Assembly: GCA_000310025.1 (NCBI GenBank)
Contig: FN647768.1
Coordinates: 368,497-409,944, forward strand
Origin: Ectocarpus siliculosus
Taxonomy: Eukaryota > Sar > Phaeophyceae > Ectocarpales > Ectocarpaceae
Reading direction: 5' to 3'
Length of the DNA stretch: 41,448 bases
In this document: positions 2,813 to 40,460 of the stretch, in pieces
Layout of the letters: each line of letters starts with the position of its first letter
Numbering within the stretch: position 1 is the first letter of the stretch
The notes under the pieces: generated by a model
Seen by the model: only the letters and a program-made list of their open reading frames with translations
Told to the model about the DNA's origin: nothing
Databases searched by the model: none
Translations under genes and position numbers: made by a program

Positions 2813-3810
2813 AATATCATATATGCAGATTCTATACTCAAATCAATGCTCAACTCCTAAAAGCTACAACGAAGATTTTAGCTGACGATTGATGCTCGCT
2901 CATGAATCGAAGATATGACTCTTCACAAAACATCCAAAAAGGAGGGTGAGTTGTAGAAACATCCCGAATCAACCCCCACACCATCATTGAGACGAAAGAT
3001 GGATGCGAACGGCCACGAGACGACACATCGACATCTCAATGACAACGCTCCTATCAATGAAGGGATAAGGCCAAGAAAAATATGTAGTGCTGCACAGCAC
3101 GCTATCCGCAACAGACGACGGCAAGAGAAATAAAGTCAAAACCTAAACGCCACACACCACTCTTTTACGCGCACCCCCGCGTATAACAATGGGAGGGATG
3201 AGGGCGACTACCCGAGAGAGCCCCAAAATACTGCAACAAAACTCAAAACCCAAGCAAATTTCCGAACGAATACGGCCTTTGATACTGGACGCGACGTAAA
3301 GGGGAAGATATCAACGCAACCAATCTAGGAAAGCGTCAAAGAAGAGCAGGAGAAATGAATGACAGGCGAACACACTGACAACAATTTCTAGCGTGTCAGA
3401 GAACTCAAACCGTATAGAGAGGCGGCCACGGCAAGACCTGATGAAAACCAAGAATGCAAAGCATGAATGATCAACGTCTGAGAAGCGATCTGACGAACTT
3501 TCCCTGGCTCGCGGGCAAAGCACAACACAGGAAGACTCAGATAACACAGAAAAATCGCAGAGATACACACAACAACACAACGACTCAAGGGCTCGACGAT
3601 GATGAAGGCGTCGCCGGCAGGTAGCGATGACGGAGACGAAGTGGAACGAAGTGTGGATGACGACGAATGTCCACGGGAGAAGACGACGCCACGGGATGGA
3701 AGCCCGAAGTAACAAGCCTAGATGACACTTCGGCGATACGGTGGAGCTAAAAAAAAAATGAGTTGGCGAAAGGCGAACCAAGGGAAACACGAGAAACTCG
3801 GTGTTTGCCT

Positions 3811-4025
3811 GGTCAGAGGCGAACATACCGACGAAACTTGGGGAACTCGTTGTTGAAGTGTTCAGAGGCAAACAACACCGACGAAACTTGGGGAACTCTT
3901 TTTCCAAGTGTTCAGAGGCAAACAACACCGACGAAACTTGGGGAACTCTTTTTCCAAGTGTTCAGAGGCAAACAACACCGACGAAACTTGGGGAACTCTT
4001 TTTCCAAGTGTTCAGAGGCAAACCA
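3811..4025 (-). repeat. 50-bp tandem repeat (about 4.3 copies)
   Basis: Three units at 3861-3910, 3911-3960 and 3961-4010 are identical over 50 bp. A diverged unit precedes them (3812-3860) and a partial one follows (4011-4025). The core reads ttcagaggcaaacaacaccg. The period is not a multiple of three, so it is not maintained as protein. Confidence 0.95.
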
Positions 4026-4050
4026 CACGGAGAAAACAAGAAGGAAAAGA

Positions 4051-4092
4051 AAAAAAAACAAACAAACAAACGAACAAACAAACAAACAAAAT
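4051..4092. repeat. Simple A-rich / (CAAA)n repeat
   Basis: An A run is followed by about nine caaa/cgaa units just downstream of the Pol stop on the element strand, where it reads as a (TTTG)n tract. Confidence 0.85.
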
Positions 4093-4127: not shown

Positions 4128-7100
4128 CTAGGAAGAGAGATTGGGAACAGCCGACGGTAAGGAGTCAGTAATGTGAGGAGTGCGATTCCGGGCGTCGCCC
4201 AAAGGGCGCGAGCGATGTTTTTCTAAACACCACGATCCACAGACGGCGTCCAAGGCGGTGGAGTAGAGGTGCGCAGGCAGAGGGAGAACGCTGGGGCCCG
4301 GGTCATCCAGAAATCGAACGATGTACGAGCCGTCCTGATGAGCACCAATACGTCCTGCCCACCATAATCCGTCGCGGGCCTTGTACCACAGCCGCGCTCC
4401 TACTGGAAGGGGCGAAATGCTGAAGCGACGGAGCCAAGTCGCGTGAAGCACAAGGTCAGCCCCAGGAGGCAAATAGCGTTCGCCACGATTCCGGGCGAGC
4501 TCCCGTTGTGCCGCGCGTGTCCGAGCCACTCGATACGTGCGGTTACCCTGCTTGCTTTGGCAGACCTCTCGAGACCAGTACAAGAGGATGTGTCGACGGA
4601 ATTGATCGAGGTCGGACTCCCGTTCCCAAGAAGGAGTAGTCAGGCCTAGCCAATGCGTCTGGTACAGGACAGCGAGAACGCCGCTACGGCCCCGCACCAA
4701 TTGGTGTCCCGAAATGTAGTCGACCTCGAGGCGCCCGACAGGCACCGACACATCATCCGCGGTGACGTGAAACGGTGGACATTTATCGCCGAAAGAGTGC
4801 AGGACATAACGCGAAAGCTCAGCGGGTAGAGATTGGGGCAGGTCGTCCTTCTCGTACGGATTGCGACAGGGCTTGCAACGAAGGACAGATACGCGACATC
4901 GAGCTGCTGGGCCGGAAAGATCAGAAGGCAGGTCCAGGTAGAGGAGTTTACGCGCCAACGGGCTTCCATCTGGGGTGGCGTCGGCCGACGCGGGACCCAC
5001 CGCAAGAACTTTGTAAGGCCCCGTCCAGGAAAGCGCGAATTTGGCCTTGAGCACCTGGTGATCCGTGTCGTTCCGCACACCCTGTCGAATTGTAGCAGCC
5101 GTGTTGTAGACCCAAGCCCACCCGCCAACAGTAAATTGCGGGAGCTTGTGGATGGCGTCCAGCAGGGATGAATTACGGCGTTCGACTCGCGAGATCTTCA
5201 GGGCGTTGTACTCACGGACCAGGTCGTAGGCCCGGCGCTGACGATCGACAGCCAAGTTGCAGTACTCGAGTTGGTCACGGGCTAAGCTTTGATGACCACC
5301 TACCGTTGGATGATCGAAGACCGAAAGCGGAAGCCGCGGAATGCGTCCGATATGGATCTCGTTCGGCGCCAATCCAGTCGACTGGTTCACGGAATTGTTG
5401 TAGGCAAATTCAACGTGCGGGAGATGTATGTCCCAATCGTTTTGCTGTTCGTTGACGACTACCGCAAGCATCTGAGCCATCGTGTGATTGACGCGTTCCG
5501 TGCCGCCGTTGGTTTGCGGGTGGTAGGAGCTGGTGGTGACTTTCTTGATTTTCATCATCTCGTAGATCGCCATGGAGAGCTTCGAGCAAAAATGCAGCCC
5601 GTTGTCCGACAATAACGTAGTCGGACATCCCCACTTGGTCATGTACTGGTTGACGAAGATGTGAGCCGTCCCTTTCGCCGTAAATTCCGCCGCTGTAACC
5701 GCGAACATGTCGGCTCTCCGGCTGAAACGGTCTGTGAACAATAGAATGTAGGAGTTGCCCTTGGCAGTCACGGGCAGGGGGCCGAAGAAGTCGACGCCGA
5801 CGACCGTACCAGGCCCCTGTGGCAATGGCATAGCGATGACGGGCCACCGAGCGGTTTGACGCGAAGTCTTGCGAGCTTGACACACCAAACACGCGCGAAG
5901 CCACCAGCGTACGGATCGATCCAGACCAATCCACCAGTAGAAACGCTCAAGCAGACGTTGTGTACGATGAACACCAAGATGGAAGGACGCGGCGGTATGG
6001 CAGGCATGAAGGACCCACGGACGCATCAACATGGGCACGTAGACACGGGGCACACCAGTATCCGGTAGACGAGTGGTCCTGCCGCCAGAGCGCCCGATCG
6101 GCGATGGCGCCGGTTTATGTACGAGGAGGGTGACGTTCTCATCGGTCGTGTGCAGCCTGGTTTTCGCCGCCAACGCAAGGACATCGTTCAACCGAGGGGA
6201 GCGGAGCGGGGCACTAAGGGTGAGCAAGTCAGAAGGGGGGGGGGAGGGAGAGCCACGAGACAGAAAGCGCATAGCCACCACGCATTCGCTCTCCCGCTGT
6301 TGTTCCCTAGCCCAGTCCACAGTGCCGAAACTCTGAACGCAAGCTCGCAAATGTGAGGGGTCCAAGTCAGTCGGCTCCAACCCAGAGACAAGCGATCCCA
6401 CGGAAGAGGCTGGAGAACGAGGGGCATCAACGAGTGGTGAAGTTGCAGACCGCGGTGTCACCTCAGGAGGAGGCATTGGGCGGGGCGAAGTCCCAGGCGA
6501 AACCTGGATAGAGGGCAAAACCGAGGATGCAGCGCGCGCCGATGCCGACGAAGGCACCTGTGGCGCAGAGGCAGTCGACGAAAACGCCGACGTTGGCGTC
6601 GCAGATGACGGCAGGGGACGCGTGCCGGTCCGGATGGTCTTGTTTGTCGAGCGGGACCGGCTAGGACGACGGGCAGTGGACGATGCCCGAGGGACGATGG
6701 TAGCCCGCGGCTGGCGTTCGAAATAGGTGGGACCGGTGACGGTGCCTCCAGAAGCAGCGGTGGTCTTGGCCCGAGTTCGTGAAGAAATGAGCGGTCCCCG
6801 CTCCGGAAGCGAAGACAGGACGTGCACATATCTATTCGCCAAAGACGCGGCCGGAGACATTCCGCGGGACGTAGCCGGGGCCAAACAGGAAACAGGCACC
6901 GGAGACGCGAAAACATGTGAGACCACGAAGACTCCCGAAGACCTCCGAGAATCTTGATAATCAATCGGTGAGTCCGATCGAACATCCAGCAGGCGCGGGT
7001 GATGACGGCGGAAATCCCCAAAATCGGATGGCTGTAGCGCTGGGGGTGAAAAGACACCCGCCGAGCAGGGAGGGCGGAGCCCACCCAAACCGACCTCCGG

Positions 7101-10100
7101 CGTAGACGACGAGTGATAGTTGAGTCCACAAGCCCGAATGAGGAAGACACCAGCGTGATCGACACCATCAATGCAATCGGGGCCGGTTGTGTCCGTGTCT
7201 TGCGCTGGTAAAGGCAGCCGCGAAAGGAAATCCGCGTTGCCGTTTGCCGAACCTTTCCGATATTTCAGGGTGTAGGTGAAGTTGGACAGGAATTCGAGCC
7301 ATCGTTGTACCCTGGCGTTGTGTTCTCCAACCTTTCCAATGCTCTCTAAGGCTTTGTGATCTGAATAGATGATGAACTTGGTTGACCACAAATAGCCCCG
7401 AAGGCGCTTAATGGCCCAAACAATGCCACCAGCTTCCAGATCCAGAACAGTCCAGTTCCGCTCCGCCGGAAGAGTAGCGCGGCTGATGTACACAATGGGT
7501 CTTACCGAGCCATCGAGTTGTTCTTGTTCCAGGGAGGCTCCAAAACCGTCAATGCACGCGTCGGAGCACAAACGGAGAGGACGGCTGTTGTCCTCGACCG
7601 CAGCCCAATCCGGGAAGACCAAAATCGGGGGACGCGCGAGTTCGCTCAACAACGTTTTGACAACCTTGACCATGCCCGGGGTGTACTTGAAGGGGACGCC
7701 TTGTTTGAGAAGAGAGTTGAGAGGCCGCACCTTGGTGGCGAGATTCTGAAGGAATTTCCGGTAGTAGCTGAGGCCACCGAGGAGGCTCCTAAGCTGCTTA
7801 ACATTCGTCGGCGGCGGCATGTGCGTGAGCGCCCGAACCTTGACGCCATCAGGGCTAACCCCAGCCGGGGAGATGGTGTGACCGAGGAAATTGGCGTGGG
7901 TGGCGCCGACACGAGCCTTCCCTGGAGACAGCTTGAGGTTGTACTGGCGCAGCCGTTTGAAAAACTCGATCATGTTGAGCACGTGTCCCAGAGGTTCCTC
8001 ATCGAAACAGATAACATCATCCAGATAGGCAAGCACACGCTCCAGACCGTGCACCACTCTGTTGATGACCTTGACGAACCAAGACGGGCTGGCATTGGCT
8101 CCTTGCGGCATCCGAAGCCATTCGAACAACTGCGTGGGAGTGCAAAAGGCGGTGAGCGGGACAGTGTCTTCGTCACAAACGATCTGGTGGAAGGCCGAAT
8201 TGAGATCGAAGATGGAGAACACTTTCCCGGTGTAGAGAGAATCCAAGATACCGTCCACCCGAGGGAGAGGTTGTCCATCCAAGTCCACCAGGGCGTTGAG
8301 TCGTTTGTAGTTGACGGTGATGCGAACCGATCCGTCCTTCTTGGGGATGACGACCAGGGGAGAAGCCCAGGGAGAAGTGGAATGCTGAATGAGCCCTGCC
8401 GCCAAATACTGGTCCAAGACGGCATCCACTTTCTTCTGCATTAACGGGTTAATACGATACGGGCGTGATGCGACGGGCTTCGTCCCTGCGGGGACAGAAA
8501 GAGTGAATGGCATGACGGTGCAGGAACCAAAATCGGTTTTCGAAGTAGAGAACACGTCGGAATACTCAACAAGGGCGTCGGCCAAACGATCAATAGCCTC
8601 CGGTGTCCATCCCGGGTTGTGTAGATCGAAAGCGATGTCGTGCATATGTGCGGGCAGCCTAGTCCACAATCGCAGAAAACTGGAGCGCTGGGCCTCGGAG
8701 AAGCGGTCAAGCAGTTCTTGTGGAGGCGGCTTCGGAGGAGGCGGGGCGGAGGCTGGGTCCGGAGAGCGGCGATTCCCGGACTTGGGGCCAACGGCGTTGA
8801 CCCGATGCGGTGATGTAGAGGACGGGGGGGCGGTGGGAGTCGAAGATGGAGCCGCCTTCAGGGTTTCTACCGGTACTCGTAATAGCGGTGCAGCAGACAC
8901 GCCAATAACGTCGCCCGGCTCCAATTCGGCACAACCTGCAAGGGGAATACGCTGAAGACCATTGGAAACAAATGCATCGGGGGACGAAAGTGCACCCACT
9001 TCAGGTCGGAACGATACGAGATATTCGCCGATCAGCGCAGGCATGCCCGAAGAACGGACGAGGTCCACCTCAACAAGGGCAGGCTCCGGCCCCAAGGAAA
9101 TGCCCGAGCTCCCTGCATATTTGAGGTGAAACGAAGAGGCAGGAGCGTCGTCCTGTGTAGCGTAAACACAAGCGCCAGCGGTGAAACGTGGAGAGAGCGT
9201 GAGCTCGCCCATAACCCGGCCGTCCGGTCCAGGGTGGGGGAGGGTGGTGAACACTCGAGAGTTGAACCGCATCCAGCTATCGCGACCCAGAAGCACGGCG
9301 TGCCCCATAGCGGCATCTGGAACAACGCAGGCCCAGACCGCCAACGAAGCGGTAGCTCGAGCTCCACGAAGAAAATTAACGGTGAGACGAACTGACCGAG
9401 TGGTCACAAGGGCGGGTCCATCACCAAACCCACCCCAACGACGAGAGGGCGAAACACGAACGCTGCCAGCTGTCAAGGCTCCAGCAGCTATCATGGCGGT
9501 GACCACGGAGTCGGACACAAAAGACGCAGGAGACCCAGAGTCCAGCAGTGCCACTCGCGCGAGTTGAGAAGTGGCTGTAGGTCCGCCATGCAGCAGAACC
9601 CGGGTGGTGTAAGAGTCCGAGTCCAACAGGAGCGTGCCACCGACCAGATCGGGCCCGTGTTCCAGAAGAGGAGGTTGGTCTGCACAAGCGGAGGTCGAGG
9701 CCACCAGATGAACACCAGGAGCATGGTCCCCCGGAGCGTCCAAACGGAGACAAGCTGGGTCTTCACCCCGGTCCTCCCGTGACGACGAACCGGCCGCGGT
9801 AGCAACCTCGTGGATGCGTCTACGGCCATGGGGAAGAGGCTGCGAAATGGGGGGGGTGGGGGAAGTGGAGGCGGAGAGAGCTTCGCCAGACAGGGGATGA
9901 TCCCGCAAAAGGCGCCGAACTTCCATCAAAGCTTTTCCCAACAAGTTTTTACCGCTAGATGCCCACTTGGATGAAATGCTAGCCTCCGGAAAGCATGCAG
10001 ACATGCCGATACCCCAAACACGATCAAAGGGGCTGGCTTCCGCAAGGAGGCGGGTACCCGTCTCCAGTAAATGTTGTTTCATGTCGTGGTTCTGAGCGAA

Positions 10101-11258
10101 TTTGGCATACGACCCCGTAAGCACGATCTCTTCTCGACGACGCTCCCATTCGGCATAATCAAAAGGACGTACGTTACGACCCAAGTACTTGTGTGTCTTA
10201 GGATCGGTTGCAGCCATGATTTTGTCATACGACGTCATATCCCCAAACAACTTCGCTTTTTCAGACATCATAAATTGCTCACCACATGAATAACGTACCC
10301 CCAGTACGTCAAAAGCCGAGGGAGTCCATTGCGAGAACACAGACGGAGGTTTCCAGAAGAGGAGGACATCATCCGAAGCGTACTCGCATTTGTCATCAAA
10401 CGGCGGAGCCGGTGCAGGGCGGAGGGGCAAAGAGCGGGCACCAGGCACGGGCGGGGGTGAGCCAAGCGGACGGGTCCTCATCTCCGACGGGGAGGACCCA
10501 GAAAGCGAGGGAGGAGCGGGCGAAGTCGTTCCGGTCCATGATCCGGAGGGCGGCCTACGAGCGGCGGCTCCGGCGAGGTCAATGTTAGCAGAGGCCATTC
10601 GGCTATGAGAGACCCGTTCGTTAGGAGAAGTCTTTCCTGCGGCAGACGAATGTGCGTGAATGGACGCAGGGCGCTCTGGACTACTCCCCCGTGACAAAGG
10701 AGCCGAACCTTCCACCGAATGGTGGGCACTACCATCCGATCCCGATGGCAGTGGTGCAGTCAGCACGTTGTGGGCAGCAGAGGAAGACGCATTCGTATCA
10801 GGTGCTGTCACACGGGGGCAGCGGACGGTCGAAGACAACGAAAGCTGCGAAAGAGAAGGAGAATCGACAGGATCCCCGGCGAATGTAGAAGAAGGCTCGT
10901 GTGCTATCCGAGAAGAGGCCCGGCTGACAACACCAGAAGAGTCTTGGCGAACAGTAGTAGACGAGGTTCTTGTTCCTTCTGTAACCCGAGACGACGAGGT
11001 GAGCAGGGGTGAACCGCTCGACGTCTTACCTCCCTGTCGCCCACACCACAAAGGTTGTGCCGGAGTGGGTTTGTCATGTCCAATACCAGCAGACGATGAG
11101 GCGGGCGATGAGGAGGCGGGCCGAGAAACTAAACGTGATTGGGGGACATCGGGAGTATCCAAAGAAGTAGGCTGTACACGAACATCTTGGGAGACTCCAA
11201 AAGGGTGCACGGTGGTTGCTGTTGACGGTAGTACCGGCTGAACTCCGCCATCGGCAAG
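4128..11258 (-). CDS. pol: Pol polyprotein (NADAR-PR-RT-RH-IN-chromodomain-Tudor-like)
   Basis: The frame is open from the codon after the Gag UGA (11258) to the stop at 4128-4130. It is in the same frame as Gag and has no ATG for its first 220 or so codons, so it probably depends on readthrough rather than its own start. Numbering here counts from the GTG at 11210. Ser/Pro-rich disorder spans 1-275 and NADAR about 282-437. Retropepsin has D557-S-G and LLGRD near 640. RT spans about 870-1110 with YLDD at 1062-1065. RNase H spans about 1212-1335 (D1217, E1259, D1284, D1327). A Ser/Pro-rich linker covers 1336-1640. Integrase has H1738, H1744, C1774, C1777, D1807, D1869, E1905 and GPY at 2064-2066. 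The chromodomain spans about 2155-2216 and a Tudor/agenet-like fold about 2266-2322. All visible catalytic residues are intact. Confidence 0.95.
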   Translation of the reverse strand, partial: LADGGVQPVLPSTATTVHPFGVSQDVRVQPTSLDTPDVPQSRLVSRPASSSPASSSAGIGHDKPTPAQPLWCGRQGGKTSSGSPLLTSSSRVTEGTRTSSTTVRQDSSGVVSRASSRIAHEPSSTFAGDPVDSPSLSQLSLSSTVRCPRVTAPDTNASSSAAHNVLTAPLPSGSDGSAHHSVEGSAPLSRGSSPERPASIHAHSSAAGKTSPNERVSHSRMASANIDLAGAAARRPPSGSWTGTTSPAPPSLSGSSPSEMRTRPLGSPPPVPGARSLPLRPAPAPPFDDKCEYASDDVLLFWKPPSVFSQWTPSAFDVLGVRYSCGEQFMMSEKAKLFGDMTSYDKIMAATDPKTHKYLGRNVRPFDYAEWERRREEIVLTGSYAKFAQNHDMKQHLLETGTRLLAEASPFDRVWGIGMSACFPEASISSKWASSGKNLLGKALMEVRRLLRDHPLSGEALSASTSPTPPISQPLPHGRRRIHEVATAAGSSSREDRGEDPACLRLDAPGDHAPGVHLVASTSACADQPPLLEHGPDLVGGTLLLDSDSYTTRVLLHGGPTATSQLARVALLDSGSPASFVSDSVVTAMIAAGALTAGSVRVSPSRRWGGFGDGPALVTTRSVRLTVNFLRGARATASLAVWACVVPDAAMGHAVLLGRDSWMRFNSRVFTTLPHPGPDGRVMGELTLSPRFTAGACVYATQDDAPASSFHLKYAGSSGISLGPEPALVEVDLVRSSGMPALIGEYLVSFRPEVGALSSPDAFVSNGLQRIPLAGCAELEPGDVIGVSAAPLLRVPVETLKAAPSSTPTAPPSSTSPHRVNAVGPKSGNRRSPDPASAPPPPKPPPQELLDRFSEAQRSSFLRLWTRLPAHMHDIAFDLHNPGWTPEAIDRLADALVEYSDVFSTSKTDFGSCTVMPFTLSVPAGTKPVASRPYRINPLMQKKVDAVLDQYLAAGLIQHSTSPWASPLVVIPKKDGSVRITVNYKRLNALVDLDGQPLPRVDGILDSLYTGKVFSIFDLNSAFHQIVCDEDTVPLTAFCTPTQLFEWLRMPQGANASPSWFVKVINRVVHGLERVLAYLDDVICFDEEPLGHVLNMIEFFKRLRQYNLKLSPGKARVGATHANFLGHTISPAGVSPDGVKVRALTHMPPPTNVKQLRSLLGGLSYYRKFLQNLATKVRPLNSLLKQGVPFKYTPGMVKVVKTLLSELARPPILVFPDWAAVEDNSRPLRLCSDACIDGFGASLEQEQLDGSVRPIVYISRATLPAERNWTVLDLEAGGIVWAIKRLRGYLWSTKFIIYSDHKALESIGKVGEHNARVQRWLEFLSNFTYTLKYRKGSANGNADFLSRLPLPAQDTDTTGPDCIDGVDHAGVFLIRACGLNYHSSSTPEVGLGGLRPPCSAGVFSPPALQPSDFGDFRRHHPRLLDVRSDSPIDYQDSRRSSGVFVVSHVFASPVPVSCLAPATSRGMSPAASLANRYVHVLSSLPERGPLISSRTRAKTTAASGGTVTGPTYFERQPRATIVPRASSTARRPSRSRSTNKTIRTGTRPLPSSATPTSAFSSTASAPQVPSSASARAASSVLPSIQVSPGTSPRPMPPPEVTPRSATSPLVDAPRSPASSVGSLVSGLEPTDLDPSHLRACVQSFGTVDWAREQQRESECVVAMRFLSRGSPSPPPSDLLTLSAPLRSPRLNDVLALAAKTRLHTTDENVTLLVHKPAPSPIGRSGGRTTRLPDTGVPRVYVPMLMRPWVLHACHTAASFHLGVHRTQRLLERFYWWIGLDRSVRWWLRACLVCQARKTSRQTARWPVIAMPLPQGPGTVVGVDFFGPLPVTAKGNSYILLFTDRFSRRADMFAVTAAEFTAKGTAHIFVNQYMTKWGCPTTLLSDNGLHFCSKLSMAIYEMMKIKKVTTSSYHPQTNGGTERVNHTMAQMLAVVVNEQQNDWDIHLPHVEFAYNNSVNQSTGLAPNEIHIGRIPRLPLSVFDHPTVGGHQSLARDQLEYCNLAVDRQRRAYDLVREYNALKISRVERRNSSLLDAIHKLPQFTVGGWAWVYNTAATIRQGVRNDTDHQVLKAKFALSWTGPYKVLAVGPASADATPDGSPLARKLLYLDLPSDLSGPAARCRVSVLRCKPCRNPYEKDDLPQSLPAELSRYVLHSFGDKCPPFHVTADDVSVPVGRLEVDYISGHQLVRGRSGVLAVLYQTHWLGLTTPSWERESDLDQFRRHILLYWSREVCQSKQGNRTYRVARTRAAQRELARNRGERYLPPGADLVLHATWLRRFSISPLPVGARLWYKARDGLWWAGRIGAHQDGSYIVRFLDDPGPSVLPLPAHLYSTALDAVCGSWCLEKHRSRPLGDARNRTPHITDSLPSAVPNLSS
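4245..4415 (-). other. Tudor/agenet-like domain at the Pol C-terminus
   Basis: Pol residues about 2266-2322 follow the pattern G-x-x-L-W-Y-K-A-R-D-G-L-W-W-A-G-R-I, then D-G-S-Y-I-V-R-F-L-D-D. This matches the beta-barrel pattern of Tudor/agenet or SH3-like chromatin readers (GxxVxAxxxDGxWYxGxI...YxVxFDD). It would sit behind the chromodomain on integrase. The call is pattern-based and needs a profile search. Confidence 0.6.
4563..4748 (-). other. Chromodomain of integrase
   Basis: Pol residues about 2155-2216 start VGRLEVDYI, continue through a strand ending VLYQTHWLGL, then SWERESDL and ILLYWSRE. This is the chromodomain pattern (VExIxxxR...YLVKWxGY...TWExxxxL...Ixxy). In chromoviruses this module directs integration toward marked chromatin. 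Confidence 0.8.
5211..6023 (-). other. Integrase: zinc-binding domain and DDE core
   Basis: The HHCC finger (CHTAASFHLG ... CLVCQ) is followed by VGVDFFGP, LLSDNGLHF and NGGTERVNH. These give D1807, D1869 and E1905 with the D-E spacing of exactly 35 residues typical of retroviral and Ty3 integrases. The GPY/F motif (SWTGPYKVL) lies downstream. Confidence 0.95.
7206..8603 (-). other. Reverse transcriptase and RNase H
   Basis: The RT core reads SPWASPLVVIPKKDGSVR, then FSIFDLNSAFHQI (catalytic D1002), LRMPQGANASPSWF and VLAYLDDVICF (active site YLDD). The connection region FLGHTISPAGVSPDGVKV follows. RNase H supplies LCSDACIDGFGASL, VLDLEAGGIVWAI, IIYSDHKALE and GSANGNADFLSR. The order and motifs are typical of Ty3/gypsy. 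Confidence 0.97.
9231..9632 (-). other. Retropepsin-type aspartic protease
   Basis: Pol residues about 527-660 contain ARVALLDSGSPASFVS, with DSG in place of the more common DTG, and the later strand HAVLLGRDSWM typical of the retropepsin fold. It would mature the Gag-Pol products. Confidence 0.85.
9900..10367 (-). other. NADAR domain (YbiA/RibX-like) within Pol
   Basis: Pol residues about 282-437 match the NADAR pattern in order. VLLFWKPPSVFSQW and the strand before VRYSCGEQFMMSEKA correspond to FSNFYPxxF and YxTxEHYFQAxKA. Then come YDKIMAATDPKTHKYLGRNV, a W-x2-R-R region, YAKFAQN, HLLETGTRLLAEASPFD, RVWGIG and GKNLLGKALMEVRRLL. The helix glutamate and the C-terminal GxNxLGKxLMxVR are present. 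Known NADAR proteins remove ADP-ribose from guanine bases or act on riboflavin-pathway intermediates. In this element the substrate is unknown; reversal of nucleic-acid ADP-ribosylation during the retroelement cycle is inference. Confidence 0.87.
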
Positions 11259-11261
11259 TCA
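11256..11261 (-). promoter_or_regulatory. Candidate stop-codon readthrough site between Gag and Pol
   Basis: On the element strand the junction reads AAA TGA CTT GCC. Gag ends at this TGA, and the same frame continues without interruption into Pol for about 2,376 codons. The UGA-C context is known to be leaky in other readthrough systems (UGA CUA type); here the third base after C differs. There is no ATG for about 220 codons of Pol. Confidence 0.65.
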
Positions 11262-14200
11262 TTTCTTACCCTTCCAGCCCCTCTTAGCCGAAGTGGAAGT
11301 CTCCGACGAGGATTCTGTGTGTGAGGACTGTTTCATGTCCGATGTGTCAAATGAGCGGCGGGCTCGTCCGGAGGAGTGATTACGGGGTGGGTTGCGTCCT
11401 GTAGGGCGTCTATACGAGGTCATGCGCTTTTTCCACCGACTCCAAAGTGCGGGATCTTTTTCCATGCAGAGCTTGATGTCATTGTTAAGCAGGCCTGTGG
11501 CGTTAATGAAACCACGAGTACAGGATTTGAAGGAGTGATCTTCGCCTAAGCAGTTGAGGCACTTGCCCTTGTACAGCCGAAGCGCGTTGCGGCGGTCTTC
11601 AGCTGAGACCAAGGGGGTGAACAATGGCGGATCATTCTTGGTTAGAGCCATCTCACTAGCGACATTGTACACCTCTTGAAAGTGTCCTTGCAACGGCCAG
11701 TCGCTGTAGTGCAACAGAAAAGGGTCCCGATCATCATTAGGCAGAGGGTCAACACTCATCACCGCAGCCGAAGAACCTCGGCTCCACGAAGGGGTCACCG
11801 ACGAATGCAACGCCGAAGAAGCTACAGCACGCGAAACCGCAGACGAACTCCTAGCATTCGTGGAAGACACCGAAAAAAAATCGTCCCCATGTACCGCCGG
11901 CGTGTGCGCGAATGCCCGCTTGTCCAACACATCCCACATGTCGTCCAAACACGAAGCATGTCGCCCAAAAGGGGCTTCCATGGAGAGCTGCTCATCCTTG
12001 TACACCTGTCCAGACACTACGGGAAACTGCTTCAACATGGAGTCTCGAACAGCTATCTGCACTTGTGCATCCGAAGGCTTGAACGCGTGATGAGAAACCA
12101 TGACAGTCATGGCCAGAGCCTTATAGCGACGAATGTATTCTCCGTACGTCTCGCCGGTGGACACGCCAAAACTACGAAGGCGATCGATCCCCGAGCTCTT
12201 GTCTTGAGTGTCCCAGGCGGCCGCCAATTTCTGGATAAAGAACGCGTACGTCGAGGGCCCGGCCGGTTCCTTGCGCAGATGGTTTTCTACCTGTTGGAAA
12301 GTGGCATCAATAAATTCCAGCGTGGCACGGTTGGTGGTTTGACCTTCAACGACAGCAGCACGAACACGTTTGCGCAACAACGGAAGCCATCCTGCGACCC
12401 AGGTGGAGGAAGCGAAAGTCTGCTTGCGTTTGACGTCGCTTTTGTTGAGGATCTCGGTGACCACGCCCTTGCAGCTAGACGCGAAACGAGCAAATTCATC
12501 AGGATCAGAACCAAGGGGCAAGCGTGTGACACTATCAAGTTGTTCCGGCTTCAGCTTGTCCATCTTGTCTTGAATGCGGATGGTGTCGGCCTCCGCTGCA
12601 GCGGCGTCCGCAGCGTCCAAAGCCTCCTGCCTCGTCCTCGCCCCCGTGGAAGACAAAGGCAAGCTAGCATCATCCTGAGGCAACGGCGATGTCGCGTTGG
12701 CCGGTGACGCCATGACGTGGCCGGTCGCCGGGCGAGGATCGATCAGGATAGACGTACGCGGGAGGGGGGGGGGCACCACCAAAGGCTGTTGTAGCAGAAC
12801 TGGGGCGGTCGACGCTGATGACACCACCAAAGGCTGTTGCGGCAGAGCTGGGGCGGCCGGCGCTGATGACGATGACACTGCCGTGGTCCTGGCAGCTGCC
12901 TCATCGTGAACCTCGTACCCTGAACGAACTCCCGAGGAACTCGAAGCGTGGTCTTGCAATGGTGCCAAATGCGCCCGTGACGAAAAGGGAGGGGCAGAAG
13001 GTGGCATGCTAGGGGCGTTCGAGGGCACAGAAGGTGGTACATTCGAGTCGGCAGCAGCATCCACAACTTGGCCAGGCGTTTGCGCGCGCAGGAGAGTGAG
13101 CACTTGTTCCAACAGCATTTCAGTACGGGAAGCCGAAGTCGAGGCGTGTGATGCAGCATTGCGTGGTGAACCAACCCGTTCGTCCAAAAGCAAGGAAGAT
13201 GTGGGCTGATCTACCACGGTGTGTGTAGGGGCATGGCTTTTAACCGCGGCGGAATGTTCACGAAGTTGCATGTTGGCAAGTTTGAACGCCAAAGTAGACA
13301 CGGGCGGTGGTCCTACATCAGCGGGGGGGGGCAAAACCGGTGGCGAAGAACAGAGTGAACCATCTTCTGAGGCAGTCTTACGTTCCCCCAACAGCCCAGA
13401 ACTACGAAAATCACACCGATCATACTGCACTTGCCTGCGACCCCGACCTGACTTCCGCCGCCCTTTGCCCCCTCGACCGCTGTCCGAGCTGGTCGCCCTG
13501 CTGTTGCCCCCGCTCCTCGTCGGGCTCCGGCTGCGGCTACGCCTACGCGAAGGCGTGTTGCTCCCGCGGCGGTCGCTGCTCCGGCTGCGACCACGCCGAG
13601 ACGAAGGTGCGTGACGTGGCTGGCGGTCGGTGCTCCGGCTCCGGCTCCGGCTCTCGCGGTGTCGACGCTTGGACGAAGATTCCGCGTACCCCCGCCCGCC
13701 ATCTTCAACACCCGGCCCTCGCGAAGTGCGCTCGGCCGTCCCGCTCTTGGCCGTGGGGGCTTGATCACCCCAACGGCTCCTCCGGCTGGCGGAGGCAGGA
13801 GCCGCCGACAGACTGTAGTCCTTGGTCCCTCCGGAACCATGCGCACGGCGTGCAGAATCCTGCTGTGGGAGCTGCAGATCATGCTGAAAATCGTCGTTGG
13901 TTGCCGTACGAGCGAGCGGCAACCGAATGCCCCCGTTGTGCACCACCACCGCGGTTCCCTGGGGACCCTCGGTGAAGGAAGCCCTACGGAGAGCAGACAC
14001 TAACAGAAACACACTCTGTCGTATGGACGGTTCTAACTGGTCGAGGAACGGACTCGATACAAGATGTGCAAAACCAAGGTCTGTATAAGAGTCAGGACAG
14101 CGGTCACGCACGATGTGTTGGAGGCCAGCCCACGCAAAAAGGGCACTAGTTCGGTCAGCATCATGGAAGGTGATCACATCTGTGGGCGTGGAAAGGGGGC

Positions 14201-15119
14201 GGGACAGAAACGCTGTGTCTTCTGCGTGAAACCTGTACTCCTCGGCTTCGTCGTCTGACGCGCCGTCGGCATCCCCGGCCGGCCCACCCAGCGTCACAGA
14301 AAACTGGGGAGCAGCAGCCACTTCCGGTGCCGCCTGGGGCGTGGGAGGGGGCACGACACGACGACGGGCGGGTCGCGAAAGCAAAGTTGAAGCTTGCGGC
14401 CGGCGCCCGAGGTCCTCCAGCCGTGATCGGAGCGCCCCTTGCTTCGCCCTAGCAGCCCGGACATACTCCTCGCGCGCCGCTAGTTCCGCTTTCTTCTGTG
14501 CAGCAGCCCGAGCAGCCTCGCGCTCCTCCTCCTGCTTCCTCGCAGCCTCCGCCAGAGCAGCCTCACGCTCCTCCTCCTGCCTCCTCGCAGCTTCCGCCAG
14601 AGCAGCCTCACGCTCCTTCGCCTGCTTCCTCGCAGCCTCCGCCAGAGCAGCCTGACGCTCCTCCTCCTGCTTCCTCGCATCATCCGCCAGAGCAGCCTCA
14701 CGCTCCTCCAGCAGCTTCCGCTCTTCCGCCGCCGCTACCTCGCTAGCCAGACCGCGGTGCCACATCTCGGTCAATTCTTGAAAGGCGGCGAACTCATCTT
14801 GCGACAAGTGCATCACCATGTCTTCCTGCGGGAGCGAGAAAGGGCGAGCGCAAATGGGGGAACCAGGAGACAAACGAGCTGCCCTGACCACGTCGCGCAG
14901 GGAGATCCGTCCCGCGGTGTACGCTTGTTCCAGGTCCGCCGGATCCGCCGTGGCGATGTTGTACCTCAGGTCATCAGCTGCGGACGCGCCTGGAGTGGAC
15001 TCGCTCTCGTCGCCCGTCCCGGCCCCGGCAAGCAGCTCCGCGGTGGACGGCTCGCCCTCGGCCTCGTAATCGAGGATTTCCTCATTGCCGTCCATCAGTT
15101 CCACATATCCGCTGGACAT
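11259..15119 (-). CDS. gag: Gag polyprotein
   Basis: The chosen start is the ATG at 15119 (MSSGYVELMDGNEE), giving 1,286 residues. The same frame is open a further 576 nt upstream to a GTG at 15695, and may receive ribosomes by -1 slippage from the leader ORF. In order (counted from the GTG), it has an acidic N-terminal region and a coiled coil with five 15-residue repeats (about 330-404). An unidentified 500-610 region precedes an RS-rich stretch (about 678-755, many SRSR). Proline/serine linkers and a capsid-like helical region (about 1045-1270) follow, then one CCHC knuckle (C1379, C1382, H1387, C1392) and a basic tail. It forms the particle and binds RNA. It is unusually long for a Ty3-type Gag. 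Confidence 0.9.
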   Translation of the reverse strand: MSSGYVELMDGNEEILDYEAEGEPSTAELLAGAGTGDESESTPGASAADDLRYNIATADPADLEQAYTAGRISLRDVVRAARLSPGSPICARPFSLPQEDMVMHLSQDEFAAFQELTEMWHRGLASEVAAAEERKLLEEREAALADDARKQEEERQAALAEAARKQAKEREAALAEAARRQEEEREAALAEAARKQEEEREAARAAAQKKAELAAREEYVRAARAKQGALRSRLEDLGRRPQASTLLSRPARRRVVPPPTPQAAPEVAAAPQFSVTLGGPAGDADGASDDEAEEYRFHAEDTAFLSRPLSTPTDVITFHDADRTSALFAWAGLQHIVRDRCPDSYTDLGFAHLVSSPFLDQLEPSIRQSVFLLVSALRRASFTEGPQGTAVVVHNGGIRLPLARTATNDDFQHDLQLPQQDSARRAHGSGGTKDYSLSAAPASASRRSRWGDQAPTAKSGTAERTSRGPGVEDGGRGYAESSSKRRHRESRSRSRSTDRQPRHAPSSRRGRSRSSDRRGSNTPSRRRSRSRSPTRSGGNSRATSSDSGRGGKGRRKSGRGRRQVQYDRCDFRSSGLLGERKTASEDGSLCSSPPVLPPPADVGPPPVSTLAFKLANMQLREHSAAVKSHAPTHTVVDQPTSSLLLDERVGSPRNAASHASTSASRTEMLLEQVLTLLRAQTPGQVVDAAADSNVPPSVPSNAPSMPPSAPPFSSRAHLAPLQDHASSSSGVRSGYEVHDEAAARTTAVSSSSAPAAPALPQQPLVVSSASTAPVLLQQPLVVPPPLPRTSILIDPRPATGHVMASPANATSPLPQDDASLPLSSTGARTRQEALDAADAAAAEADTIRIQDKMDKLKPEQLDSVTRLPLGSDPDEFARFASSCKGVVTEILNKSDVKRKQTFASSTWVAGWLPLLRKRVRAAVVEGQTTNRATLEFIDATFQQVENHLRKEPAGPSTYAFFIQKLAAAWDTQDKSSGIDRLRSFGVSTGETYGEYIRRYKALAMTVMVSHHAFKPSDAQVQIAVRDSMLKQFPVVSGQVYKDEQLSMEAPFGRHASCLDDMWDVLDKRAFAHTPAVHGDDFFSVSSTNARSSSAVSRAVASSALHSSVTPSWSRGSSAAVMSVDPLPNDDRDPFLLHYSDWPLQGHFQEVYNVASEMALTKNDPPLFTPLVSAEDRRNALRLYKGKCLNCLGEDHSFKSCTRGFINATGLLNNDIKLCMEKDPALWSRWKKRMTSYRRPTGRNPPRNHSSGRARRSFDTSDMKQSSHTESSSETSTSAKRGWKGKK
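11520..11561 (-). other. Gag CCHC zinc knuckle
   Basis: CLNCLGEDHSFKSC fits CX2CX4HX4C exactly, the retroviral nucleocapsid knuckle that binds genomic RNA. Confidence 0.93.
14484..14708 (-). repeat. 45-bp tandem repeat encoding a 15-residue coiled coil
   Basis: Five units follow the pattern EEREAALAEAARKQE with small changes. The DNA repeats with a 45-bp period, in frame. Charged and alanine-rich periodicity predicts a long coiled coil, probably for Gag multimerisation. Confidence 0.9.
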
Positions 15120-15436
15120 GGTGTTCTCTTTTTTCAAAAAGACAGGGCCAGAGGAAGGGCAGCTACTATCGATTTTTACAAGTGCAGAACGGCCAGCAAC
15201 AGTAGATGTGTCACCCCCAACCGCTGTTGCGACAGCAGAACCGATTGCAGCGGAAACAGTAAAGCGGGGCGTAATCGCGGTAGAAGCAAACCGAGGTCCA
15301 TGCGAAAAACGGAGATACCCACAGGACAGCATACGTCCGGCGATAAAAGCTTGATGCACACGAGGTTGAAGCGGATCCAACCAAGCAGAAAAGGCGTCCA
15401 AAAGCACACCATGCCACGCATACACAGCAGTGGAAG

Positions 15437-16030
15437 CTAGCACAAAAGGACCGGTATTAAATGGGGACACGAGATTGTCCGACCAAAACACACGCAGAGC
15501 AGCACGGCGTTCCTCCGCAACGGGTGCCGAAGTGCGAGCAAAGACCGCTGTGGGTTTGCGGTGTTGAAAGGTTTCCAATTCGAATGCCTTGAGGGTGAAT
15601 GATGCTCCAAAAAAATTTCCATGTGATTGCGAAAAATGGAGGGAAGGCTGGTGGGGCGGCTGACACCCAATTTGTGTGCACACAATGCTCTCCACGTCGA
15701 AACAAGCGGAGTCAAATCGGAGAGCACCACAGGGAAATCCGCGGACATCGGCCGGTACGCCGGCATGAATGCAGTAGAAGTGGTAGCGGACGCGGGAAGC
15801 ATGCTATCATCTCGAGTCCCGCTACACAAAGACAGCAACTCCGGTTGCTTCATGCAAAGCGTGTCCGCCACCGAAATAACTTCATGGACCGCCGATGCAG
15901 ACAAAATAGCTTGGGAGGGGCGGCGAGCGTAGGAAAAATCACCTACAACATCGCGATGACCGCCGAGACGCGTATCCTTCGCAAGGTCCCAGTCCCGCGG
16001 GCGCTTAGCGAAAGCATCGCAAGCCAGCAT
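15437..16030 (-). CDS. Leader ORF of the retrotransposon (197 aa, unknown function)
   Basis: This ORF starts at the first AUG after the 5' LTR; no ATG occurs on the element strand between 16192 and 16030. It matches no family I recognise. Its last third overlaps the 5' extension of the Gag frame, which is open in the -1 frame relative to it. At 15608-15614 it contains U UUU UUG in phase, so a -1 slip would read straight into the Gag frame. Without a slip, translation stops at 15437. Alternatively one base of the seven-T run was gained or lost, and the true Gag simply begins at 16030. Confidence 0.55.
   Translation of the reverse strand: MLACDAFAKRPRDWDLAKDTRLGGHRDVVGDFSYARRPSQAILSASAVHEVISVADTLCMKQPELLSLCSGTRDDSMLPASATTSTAFMPAYRPMSADFPVVLSDLTPLVSTWRALCAHKLGVSRPTSLPSIFRNHMEIFLEHHSPSRHSNWKPFNTANPQRSLLALRHPLRRNAVLLCVCFGRTISCPHLIPVLLC
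15608..15614 (-). promoter_or_regulatory. Candidate -1 ribosomal slippery heptamer
   Basis: The element strand reads ATG GAA ATT TTT TTG GAG in the leader frame. The heptamer T TTT TTG therefore sits in the required X XXY YYZ phase. After a -1 slip the next codons are GGA GCA TCA, which is the Gag frame. I did not identify a pseudoknot downstream. Confidence 0.5.
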
Positions 16031-16192: not shown

Positions 16193-16492
16193 GTTTAAAG
16201 GAGGGGAAGCCGTGGGTGGTAGCTTGCTCCTAGAGATAGATGAAGGTAGGTTCTGTCGTTGACACGCTTGTCCACGATCACGTAGAGATGAGAAAGTTGC
16301 TTGTTATTGCTGAGAGACGATCAGCAAGGGTCTGAGGTGAAGTGGGGATCCAACTTCACCTCAGGGGGGGTACGCAGACTAGACAAAATCCTAAGAGGGT
16401 AGGTGTCTGAAGGGTATACCTCCTGAGACCGACCCACATCCTATCAACAATAAGATGTACCCTATTTAAGCTAGCAGCCACACTCCTTAACA
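16193..16492 (-). repeat. 5' LTR
   Basis: This copy shows no difference by eye from the 3' LTR over 300 bp. It should hold the promoter. The only TATA-like motif is CTTAAATAGG at 16461-16470, only about 25 bp from the LTR start, which would leave a very short U3. The 12-bp hairpin lies at 16332-16364. Confidence 0.95.
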
Positions 16493-16497
16493 ATTGT
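16493..16497. repeat. Candidate 5-bp target-site duplication (5' LTR side)
   Basis: ATTGT directly outside the 5' LTR matches ATTGT at 2497-2501. Confidence 0.5.
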
Positions 16498-32263: not shown

Positions 32264-32571
32264 GGTCGCTCCGGTGATCTAGTTGGGATCCTCGAAACCT
32301 TCTAGAGGTCAGGTCAGGGGTTCGAATCACGGCGTAAGCGAGCTTTTCTTGCAAAGTGAGTTTTTCTCTCGCTTCCGCTCCTGGCCTAGTGGATAGCGCT
32401 AGTTTGTGTGTACACAGAGGGAAGAGAGTGCTGAACTCTTCTCGCATTAAAAATCGAAGGCAAAGTACGGCAGGAGGGGAGGGTAGAGAGGGGTCCTTCT
32501 GTGTGACCATGGGTTGGAGTAAACGGCACTATTATTAGTGCTGTGAGCGCTGATTTGAAGCAATGACAAAA
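32264..32571 (+). mobile_element. tRNA-derived SINE, copy 1
   Basis: A short interspersed element of about 308 bp. A tRNA-like head has an A box TGATCTAGTTGG (about 32275-32286) and a B box GGTTCGAATCA (32319-32329). The body includes a second A-box-like TGGCCTAGTGG (32382-32392), and the tail ends in A-rich gacaaaaaacaaaaac. A second copy lies inverted at 39627-39952. The two share an almost identical segment of about 80 bp across the B box and beyond. No clear target duplication is visible. Confidence 0.85.
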
Positions 32572-38000: not shown

Positions 38001-40460
38001 ATGCGATAACATACGTCATACTGTATTCGCGAAACCATATGTCCTGCCGAACTAACAGGGCTATCGCACTTACGTAAAGAGGTGCTTTGTAGCTCCCCCT
38101 TTTCTTTCTCGTTCTTCTGCTCTGGAAACAAGCTCGAGAATAAAAAAACACAGACGAACTACCTCATGTGACCGTACCTAGAACAACACCAGACCTATCA
38201 AGCGCAGCAATACTGCCAACAAACACAAACATTCACTCACTTGCCACCAGCAGGGTCGTCGGCCGGTTCCAAACTCACGCCAAGAGAAAACGCCCCACTC
38301 CCGTTCGAGTTCTCGTACCACGCCAAGCCGCTGAAAACGGACGCCGAAATGACGTCGAGGTCGTCGTCGCCGTCCAAGTCCGCCAAAGCCAGCGTGATAG
38401 CACCGTCGGCGGTCGTCGAGATATCAACGCCGAGCGCAAACGTCGCCTCCCCGTCGGTGTTTTCGTACCACGTGACTCGATCTGGCGACGGCGGCGGCGG
38501 CGAGAATGGTTTCGGTTTGGAAACGGGATAGGCGGAGCACATGCGTCGATGGTGACGACTTGGGGGTCATTCATGGGACAAATGGCGGCGGAACCACACC
38601 AGCCACCGACAATACGGGAAGATACATATTGCCATCCATCACAGAGCGTTTGCTTTGTTCGACGGCCTCAAGCTCGTGTGCTTGAACCATGTAACTTGTT
38701 GCCCACCCTCCGCGCCGCAGTCCATGCGGGCACGTAGGATCAGACCCGAAAGCGCCGTGGTCGTTTCGAAACATCCCTCTGTCGTCGTGCTACTACTGCT
38801 TAGAGCCGATTCTTCGTACTAGCCCAACGAACCCGCCCCCTGTGGGTGCGGGCCTTTGGTTGGGGCCGGTGTGAGATTTTAGGACTGGGCTTCGGGCAAG
38901 AATTTTCGTGCCTTGGGCAGCTGCACCACATCGCAGATGAGCCATAGCAACGATACATGAGGAACTAATGCCAAACATTTCCCAACAACAACAACATTTC
39001 CAAGCATGACAGTACAAATCAGACTATCAACGGCTGTCCAAGTACGAGGCACGCTTACCGCCTTGTTTCGATGCCATAATCACGTCCAAGTCCCCATCCC
39101 CGTCGAGATCCGCCACCTTGACAGATCGTGACTGATCCCCGTCTTCATATGTATCGATGTCAGTGCCAACCGAAAATTCGCCCAGGCCGTCGAGATTGCT
39201 AAACCACGTCAACTGGAAGGTAGTCTGAAAGGCTACGACGACATCAGGGGACCCGTCGCCATTCAGGTCTCCGACGTCAATCGATCTGGTTTGGGCGGGC
39301 GGAGACGGCGCCGGGAGGTGTTCGAAGAGTACGATGTGCATGAGATGTGGTACATAACCAGGTTCACGAGATCATTTTTGTCTTGTCGATGGTTGTCAAC
39401 CTTTGTCGACGGAGGGACGGCAGTAGTAGTATGCCATGTTGTGCGGGTCAGAGAACTCCAGCTCCGTGCAGGGTTCGTGGTCGCAGCAAACGCAAAGATG
39501 ATGAGGCCAAGGGGGTTTTCCACATGTAGCACCCCCACGATTGACTGCTGTCTCAGGAGAAGCCGAAGCTACCTTACCACGGAGAGCAACAGGAACCCAC
39601 TTCCCAACTGAACAGCGGCGGCACACTATTTTTTTGTATTTTTTGTCTTGACATCAAATCAGCGCTCACAGCACTCGTTCAGTGTTACTCCAACCCGCGG
39701 TCACACAGAAGGGCCTCTCCCTCCCCTCCCCTCTTGCGGTCCGTTGCCTTCGATTTTTAATGCGAGAAGAGTTCAGCACTCTCTTTTTCCTCTGTGTACA
39801 CACGAACTAGCGCTATCCACTAGGTAGGCCAGGAGCGGAAGCGAGAGAAAAACTCACTTTGCAAGAAAAGCTCGCTTACGCCGTGATTCGAACCCCTGAC
39901 CTGACCTCTACAAGGTTTCGACGATACCAAACTAGACCGCCGGGGCGAGACCGGCACCACGCGAGAGCGAAAAACAAAAACATGGCCGAGAAAGGTCACA
40001 CAGCGAGCAAGGCTTTACACGCGTGTCGATCCACTTACGCTGCTCCACCGTAGCCGGACGCGACGTCCACCGCTTCCGAGAAAGTGCCCTTGCCATCCTC
40101 GTTCTCGTACCACCTCACCCAATCCTCATCGTAGGATCCCGCCAACAAGTCCAGGTCCCCGTCATCGTCCAAGTCTGCCGCGAAGACAACAACGACATCC
40201 TCGGCGTCCGAGTCGACCTTCGTCCCGATTTCGAAGGCCACCGACCCAGCACCCTCGACGGGGAGGACCCGAGATGATGCGGTCAGGAGGCCCAACAGAC
40301 AACACGCAGCAGGGAAACACCAGCTTCCCGCTGAGTTTGATTTTGATGTAGGTTGCGTGTTTATTGCGATTCGCCGAGGTAACCAGGCGCCGAGAGAGAG
40401 GTCGCACGTTGGAGGGAGGCGCCCACCCCGGGGGGGGGGGGGGGGAGCAGGGAGATGCAC
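35007..40460 (-). CDS. FG-GAP/VCBS repeat membrane protein (6 visible exons)
   Basis: A probable secreted or cell-surface beta-propeller with calcium-binding DxDxDGD loops, anchored by one C-terminal helix. Minus-strand exons are (40460)-40039, 39285-39059, 38481-38241, 37948-37621, 36807-36615 and 35212-35007, all GT-AG and phase-compatible. Each inner exon carries blades of the type VADLDGDGDLDVIMAS followed by WYEN. Clear examples are AADLDDDGDLDLLAGS, VGDLNGDGSPDVVVA, LADLDGDDDLDVISAS, TADIDGDGDMDIISAS, VDLDNDGDIDLLA and VDLDGDGDIDIATAT. The last exon encodes the membrane helix LIAVVSTVASAMFLGLVKI and a short tail with CQNC. The first exon has a hydrophobic, signal-like stretch CFPAACCLLGLLTASS but no in-frame ATG, so a start exon lies upstream. 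Ligand unknown. Confidence 0.8.
39627..39952 (-). mobile_element. tRNA-derived SINE, copy 2 (inside an FG-GAP intron)
   Basis: On the minus strand it reads from a tRNA-like head (CGGTCTAGTTTGG, then GGGTTCGAATCACGG) through the same body as copy 1 to an A-rich tail (gacaaaaaatacaaaaaaat). It has a 4-base insertion (tacc) at the second A-box-like motif relative to copy 1. It lies in the intron between exons 40039 and 39285, in the same direction as the host gene. Confidence 0.85.
40430..40445 (+). repeat. G16 homopolymer
   Basis: Sixteen consecutive G lie close to the 5' end of the first visible FG-GAP exon. Length errors here could hide the true start frame of that gene. Confidence 0.9.

Follow-up and report, generated by a model that had tools for sequence, protein, structure and literature searches.

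A NADAR domain inside the Pol polyprotein of a gypsy retrotransposon is already published for Ectocarpus and is not new. The accessible part of PMC12477816 (2025) describes an Ectocarpus gypsy lineage with a YbiA-type NADAR at the Pol N-terminus in all its families, and suggests horizontal transfer because the matches were almost all bacterial; the species of our window may already be covered there. The same accessible text makes no mention of readthrough, a stop codon or a frameshift. Our literature search, outside which most subscription journals lay, returned no second paper on NADAR in gypsy Pol. On the biochemical side, the NADARs tested in PMC11125620 and PMC11543638 hydrolyse guanine-linked ADP-ribose, according to the accessible portions of both papers. 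What is new here is the evidence for a probable single capture of the domain, for its conservation at a level like that of reverse transcriptase (RT), for probable readthrough of a UGA-C stop, and for a standalone Ectocarpales gene as its nearest neighbour in trees.

The window is a 41,448-nucleotide stretch of the Ectocarpus siliculosus genome (G000:C36:368497-409944; the genome searched comprises 189 Mb in 492 contigs). It contains a complete element on the minus strand, whose features are listed here in their order along the element:

16193..16492, minus strand: 5' LTR, 300 bp, 100% identical to 2500-2799
11259..15695, minus strand: Gag frame, 1478 aa, counted from a GTG
11520..11561, minus strand: CCHC zinc knuckle CLNCLGEDHSFKSC near the Gag C-terminus
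11259..11261, minus strand: Gag stop UGA followed by C (AAA UGA CUU), in Pol's frame; proposed readthrough site
4128..11258, minus strand: Pol frame 3' of the UGA, 2376 codons to its own stop; first AUG is codon 221
11175..11192, minus strand: SQDVRV motif at Pol codon 23 (24 with the stop counted), 5' of the first AUG
9903..10358, minus strand: NADAR domain of YbiA type, Pol residues 285-436, from Pfam
9522..9548, minus strand: aspartic protease motif LLDSGSPAS, read by eye
7872..8348, minus strand: reverse transcriptase (PF00078), with YLDD at 8016-8027
7278..7592, minus strand: RNase H (PF17917), from Pfam
5865..6038, minus strand: integrase H2C2 zinc-binding domain (PF17921), from Pfam
5517..5816, minus strand: integrase core rve (PF00665), E=1.6e-6, under the gathering score
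2500..2799, minus strand: 3' LTR, exact repeat of the 5' LTR
2497-2500 and 16493-16496: candidate 4-bp target duplication ATTG, read by eye

Gene order identifies the element as Ty3/gypsy (Metaviridae). Along Pol, NADAR is followed by the protease motif, RT, RNase H, H2C2 and rve, giving the PR-RT-RH-IN order between LTRs, with the protease (PR) assigned by motif alone. The protease region had no Pfam protease match and the Gag frame no Pfam match. Because its LTRs are identical, the window element is a young copy. Two tandem arrays lie within it: one of 50 bp at 3777-4076, in the interval from the Pol stop to the 3' LTR, and one of 45 bp at 14491-14733 within Gag, encoding Ala/Glu-rich repeats that resemble a coiled coil. 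A Tudor-like stretch at the Pol C-terminus (4347-4391) had 4ii1 as its sole PDB match, and with just this one match at E=1.1 we dropped a Tudor domain as a candidate. Elsewhere in the window, inverted repeats of 106 and 118 nt at 32283-32522 and 39685-39930, about 7.2-7.4 kb apart and 97% and 86% complementary, perhaps belong to another element.

Profile and structure searches both identify the domain as NADAR. The original prediction had placed a full-length NADAR in Pol, between the Gag stop and the protease, and had proposed a profile search of Pol among its checks. Pol residues 285-436 match Pfam NADAR (PF08719) with 154.6 bits (cut-off 35.1; E=3.4e-45), over profile positions 2-163 of 163, the full model, a score that rules out a chance motif match. 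All six predicted motif blocks lie in place on the minus strand, and the domain (9903-10358) falls between the UGA at 11259-11261 and the protease motif at 9522-9548, as proposed. Among solved structures, the Phytophthora nicotianae NADAR 8bau matches the window domain at E=5.4e-17 and YbiA 2b3w at E=1.7e-4, and a 51-sequence profile brought these to 3e-36 and 2.1e-20.

The window element is one member of a large population of NADAR-bearing copies. The NADAR profile gave at least 150 scored matches on the genome contigs among 230 candidates listed, with an internal stop in 21 of the 150. We took 40 match sites with surrounding stretches of up to 5.2 kb, chosen mostly for a high score or a long open frame, with two divergent sites added; since this sample is non-random, conservation among the copies is biased upward. 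All 40 are copies of such elements, with a protease region and RT downstream of NADAR in that order. Sorted by identity, they fall into five families labelled A to E, the window element belonging to A. Copies of family A are 97-100% identical to it in NADAR, those of the other families about 57-62%, except for L029 and L030, which stand at 44 and 47%. A 10,887-aa open frame at C3:3913787 was set aside as probably arising from a run of N, one of its four sampled pieces (L220) being all N.

Residues of the predicted ADP-ribose pocket are conserved across all five families. The accessible part of PMC11543638 names the P. nicotianae NADAR residues that bind ADP-ribose or are important for catalysis, and the window carries E311, K318, K341, R345, W355, R359, E391, D396 and W399 at the pocket positions, thereby matching the E43, K50, R79, W89, R93, D130 and W133 pocket of guanine-ADP-ribose hydrolase NADARs. 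Across 41 sequences (the 40 genome copies and the window), the equivalents of E43, K50, E125, D130 and W133 are conserved in every one, and those of R79, W89 and R93 in 39; the exceptions are L029 and L030, which carry a locally shifted reading frame. The position of E125 is Glu, rather than Asp or His, in all 41 and in 22 of 22 gypsy sequences drawn from several sources, which assigns the domain to the YbiA subfamily. In those same 22 sequences the only variation at the nine pocket positions is Cys for R93 in three, and the equivalent of K75, which is K115 of the E. coli C7 NADAR and is needed there for rescue from DarT1, is Lys throughout.

Selection between families has preserved NADAR about as strictly as the polymerase, as shown by a dN/dS comparison of the kind that the original prediction had called for. 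We estimated omega with a codon model (GY+F3X4, IQ-TREE). Across the five families of the Ectocarpus genome it is 0.123 for NADAR (36 of the 41 sequences), against 0.114 for RT (39), 0.155 for PR (34) and 0.086 for RNase H (34), all rough values since synonymous sites are probably close to saturated when families are compared (codon tree lengths 5.9-10.5). The NADAR set omits the five of 41 sequences with a stop (L009, L020, L040) or a shifted frame (L029, L030). Within family A (10 sequences) omega is 0.184 for NADAR, 0.367 for PR, 0.449 for RT and 0.425 for RNase H, and pairwise pN/pS is 0.142 for NADAR against 0.602 for the spacer before it. Pairwise NADAR pN/pS is not low elsewhere: 0.487 in B, 0.776 in C, 0.486 in D and 0.605 in E, the B and E figures taking in decayed copies. 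For comparison, PR stands at 0.716 in C and 0.940 in E, RT at 0.223 and 0.261, and RNase H at 3.542 in C, the last on few changes. Comparison across families thus gives a strong purifying signal; inside single families only A shows it clearly. Pocket conservation and low omega favour the earlier claim that the domain is functional, the activity itself being predicted from sequence.

An RT-based search points to a probable single gain of the domain. The search gave at least 111 proteins among the matches listed, 24 of them at 54% RT identity or more. Thirteen of these 24, among the matches listed, carry NADAR; of the other 11, eight begin too late to show the NADAR region, P0127 contains a NADAR fragment, and two are without the domain: P0136, a gene model with helitron sequence fused to it, and P0138, with about 280 residues before PR. 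P0147, an outgroup in the tree, is likewise without NADAR and has about 300 residues before the protease. We built a 37-row RT tree without family D; in it the 17 NADAR rows all fall in one 26-row clade with support 100/99, alongside seven rows that begin too late, the P0127 fragment and P0136, the sole row without NADAR. P0135, P0138, P0147 and P0148 lie outside this clade, with long branches flagged by the tree program at P0147 and P0148. NADAR and RT path distances correlate over 22 rows (Mantel r 0.79, with none of 5000 permutations as high). Because the 17 NADAR rows form one RT clade and two outgroups are without the domain, NADAR was probably gained once near the base of the lineage and retained since. 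One gain is likewise the simplest reading when set against repeated captures, though the NADAR and RT trees are not in full agreement: the FastTree trees place the P0137 group and P0131 differently.

The arrangement is probably wider than one genome, because P0002, P0003 and P0137-P0143 belong to other records. P0001, a protein of Ectocarpus sp. CCAP 1310/34, shares 95% identity with the window element over NADAR and 97% over RT; it carries NADAR and groups with the window at 100/99 in the RT tree; the published lineage of PMC12477816 is known here by its description. NADAR also occurs in other long proteins. P0004 (3614 aa) combines OTU, NADAR and DUF4326 with a weak match to tyrosine recombinase (E=9e-4); it may represent another kind of mobile element that bears a NADAR independently. 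P0005 (2912 aa) joins a DprA-like domain and NADAR in one protein.

Readthrough of the Gag stop would likely produce NADAR-Pol. UGA followed by C is a leaky stop context. The case for readthrough rests on the frame shared by Gag and Pol, the one UGA-C stop between them and a motif conserved before the first AUG. A single conserved in-frame gag-pol stop occurs in the five families, with Gag in frame in four: the Gag knuckle, the stop and NADAR share one frame with a single intervening stop in one copy each of A, B, C and E, and in family D one copy has UGA-C in the Pol frame. Stop contexts are AAA UGA CUU or CAU in A, AAC UGA CAC in B, AAC UGA CAG in C and GGA UGA CUC in D and E. The UGA-C site turned up in nine of ten copies of A, five of seven of B, all 13 of C and two of three of D, and in family E we read it in one of 8; it lies in the NADAR frame in 9, 2, 8 and 1 copies of A, B, C and D, counts that do not measure the frequency of stop loss since the search seeds contained TGA.

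Conserved sequence just 3' of the stop also suggests that this stretch is translated. SQD[VA]R[VI] is present at codon 24-25 (stop counted) in A, B, C and E and absent from D, and in A, B and E it stands 5' of the first AUG; because it is conserved before the first AUG, the sequence after the stop is probably part of the protein. In the otherwise variable spacer before NADAR, SQD[VA]R followed by L[WR]CG and VLT recurs between families, possibly as cleavage or docking sites. No stable RNA structure was found in the 90 nt 3' of the stop in one copy each of four families, where folding z ranged from -0.39 to -1.10 against mononucleotide shuffles.

In our trees the gene nearest to the gypsy NADAR is a standalone Ectocarpales gene, not a bacterial one. 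This gene lies in the same genome at G000:C24:2125206-2127003, with four exons read by eye; it is 86% identical to its Ectocarpus fasciculatus counterpart (P0010) and also resembles Pylaiella littoralis P0011. Its N-terminus has a Cys/His-rich motif (CKLPGCSRPCFIEPNGRVHDYCGVTH), to which both of these proteins have a counterpart. In a 141-row FastTree tree the gypsy NADARs form one clade (0.75), and the algal standalone gene adjoins it (0.88). With 75 of those rows, gypsy and three algal genes form one clade at 99/94, and with 19 named bacteria, 10 viral contigs and 12 gypsy rows the gypsy and algal clade holds at 97/80. In these last two of the three trees the algal gene falls among the gypsy NADARs with weakly supported placement, and AU tests do not reject the gypsy NADARs as one clade (p 0.66 with likelihood 8.2 higher; second tree p 0.181). 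Joining the algal gene to P0019 (Nannocystis), P0014, P0016 and P0022, all bacterial-type rows, is not rejected either (AU p 0.355). The best named bacterium among the matches listed was Nannocystis pusilla, at 54%. A viral donor was discarded, as the 10 viral-contig NADARs used, of 80 fetched, stayed outside the gypsy/algal clade. Host capture, host domestication and a shared bacterial source are all possible histories, and the position of the algal gene as nearest neighbour in the trees weakens the published idea of a direct bacterial transfer.

The original prediction also proposed what the domain does. Its core, a captured, intact and selectively maintained NADAR in a Ty3/gypsy Pol, stands on the profile, the 40 of 40 copies, the pocket, omega and the RT tree, while the stripping of ADP-ribose from element RNA or cDNA and any anti-defence role stay conjectural. 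Our main reading, to which we give a probability of about 0.5, is that NADAR was captured once and kept as a working part of Pol, and that it acts as a packaged ADP-ribosyl-base hydrolase cleaning element RNA or cDNA. Occasional UGA-C readthrough would yield Gag-NADAR-PR-RT-RH-IN. NADAR would enter the particle with Pol, presumably to be freed by the protease. There it could clear the template RNA or newly made cDNA of ADP-ribosylated guanine (or a comparable N-glycoside), just as the betaretroviral dUTPase, from a similar position, cleans nucleotide pools. Readthrough, packaging, protease release, catalysis, substrate and benefit are steps that we infer. Because tested NADARs act on ADP-ribose on guanine, cleaning of nucleic acid in the particle is the most economical reading.

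Host enzymes and published activities bear on what the substrate might be. Six-frame searches of the genome, which can miss intron-split genes, gave no match for DarT, beside NADAR or elsewhere, as a DarT-NADAR toxin-antitoxin pair would have, and none for Tpt1/KptA; they gave four exon-sized PARP matches (best E=4.5e-6) and one exon-sized Macro match. With these results, the DarT, Tpt1/KptA, PARP and Macro searches identified no host enzyme that modifies nucleic acid. The PARP and Macro matches would suit a NADAR that strips host-PARP ADP-ribose from element proteins (RT, integrase, Gag) or from chromatin proteins, a role we consider distinctly unlikely given that characterised NADARs act on guanine-linked ADP-ribose, with no protein substrates reported in the accessible parts of PMC11125620 and PMC11543638. 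Destruction of small ADP-ribose derivatives that serve as host alarm signals, proposed for phage NADARs in the accessible text of PMC9503650, is unlikely here: the same text argues that Macro and NADAR domains in eukaryotic RNA virus polyproteins act on macromolecular ADP-ribose, and a Pol-fused, low-stoichiometry particle enzyme would be a poor scavenger of a soluble signal. It is a long shot that the packaged enzyme shields reverse transcription from a brown-algal guanine-ADP-ribosylating defence and that the Ectocarpales standalone NADAR was domesticated from the element.

Other readings dispense with ADP-ribose hydrolysis or with function altogether. NADAR could be a non-catalytic binder of ADP-ribose, NAD or RNA ends, including NAD-capped RNA, that aids Pol assembly or template choice; a location between Gag and PR would fit a docking part, and the accessible text of PMC12477816 suggests a role in processing RNA intermediates. 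A pure binder, however, need not keep the catalytic glutamate E391 or K318, both invariant in 41 of 41 sequences, and we find this reading quite doubtful. Retention of the riboflavin-intermediate N-glycosidase reaction, an activity named for NADARs in the accessible part of PMC9503650, would have no link to ADP-ribose and is highly improbable, since the pocket matches an ADP-ribose complex and such cargo has no evident reason in a retrotransposon. That the domain merely drifts as a passenger is hardly credible: a stop or shifted frame does appear in 5 of 41 sequences and a stop in 21 of 150 matches, yet omega across families is 0.123 and 17 of 26 rows in the RT clade keep NADAR, with only P0136 lacking it. 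Pocket conservation and this omega largely refute a decayed domain at the family level.

That an ADP-ribose enzyme is kept about as strictly as the polymerase implies a bearing of ADP-ribosylation on retrotransposition in these algae. Because Ectocarpus is a laboratory model, both the marking or damage of element nucleic acid by host ADP-ribose and its repair by the element are directly testable there.

Individual parts of this arrangement have parallels in several known systems. The betaretroviral dUTPase sits between Gag and PR and is expressed by frameshift. It is an enzyme at a like Gag-Pro-Pol place, but an unrelated one, reached by frameshift rather than by stop readthrough. In Tca2 of Candida albicans, according to the accessible part of PMC2194720, gag and pol are split by UGA as they are here; a 3' pseudoknot is proposed for Tca2, whereas the window element has no stable structure after its stop, and no NADAR is described in that text. 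Tx1 LINEs of Crassostrea gigas, described in the accessible part of PMC12477816, carry NADAR in ORF1, likewise inside a retroelement protein, but they belong to another retroelement order and the domain sits in a different protein from gypsy Pol. P. nicotianae NADAR 8bau, a guanine-ADP-ribose hydrolase, has the same domain and pocket residues as the window; as given in the accessible part of PMC11543638, it was solved as a standalone protein with fold extensions, unlike the Pol-embedded domain. The Ectocarpales genes (P0010, P0011 and the locus at G000:C24:2125206-2127003) share one clade with the gypsy NADARs at 99/94 and 97/80, and they differ in being standalone with a Cys/His-rich N-terminus where the gypsy NADAR is Pol-fused. 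Also close is the lineage of PMC12477816 (Gypsy-12_Ec32 and others), whose accessible description gives the same YbiA-type NADAR at the gypsy Pol N-terminus in a brown alga. That text is without a selection test, and the omegas were computed here; its almost wholly bacterial matches contrast with the brown-algal standalone gene that stands nearest in the present trees.
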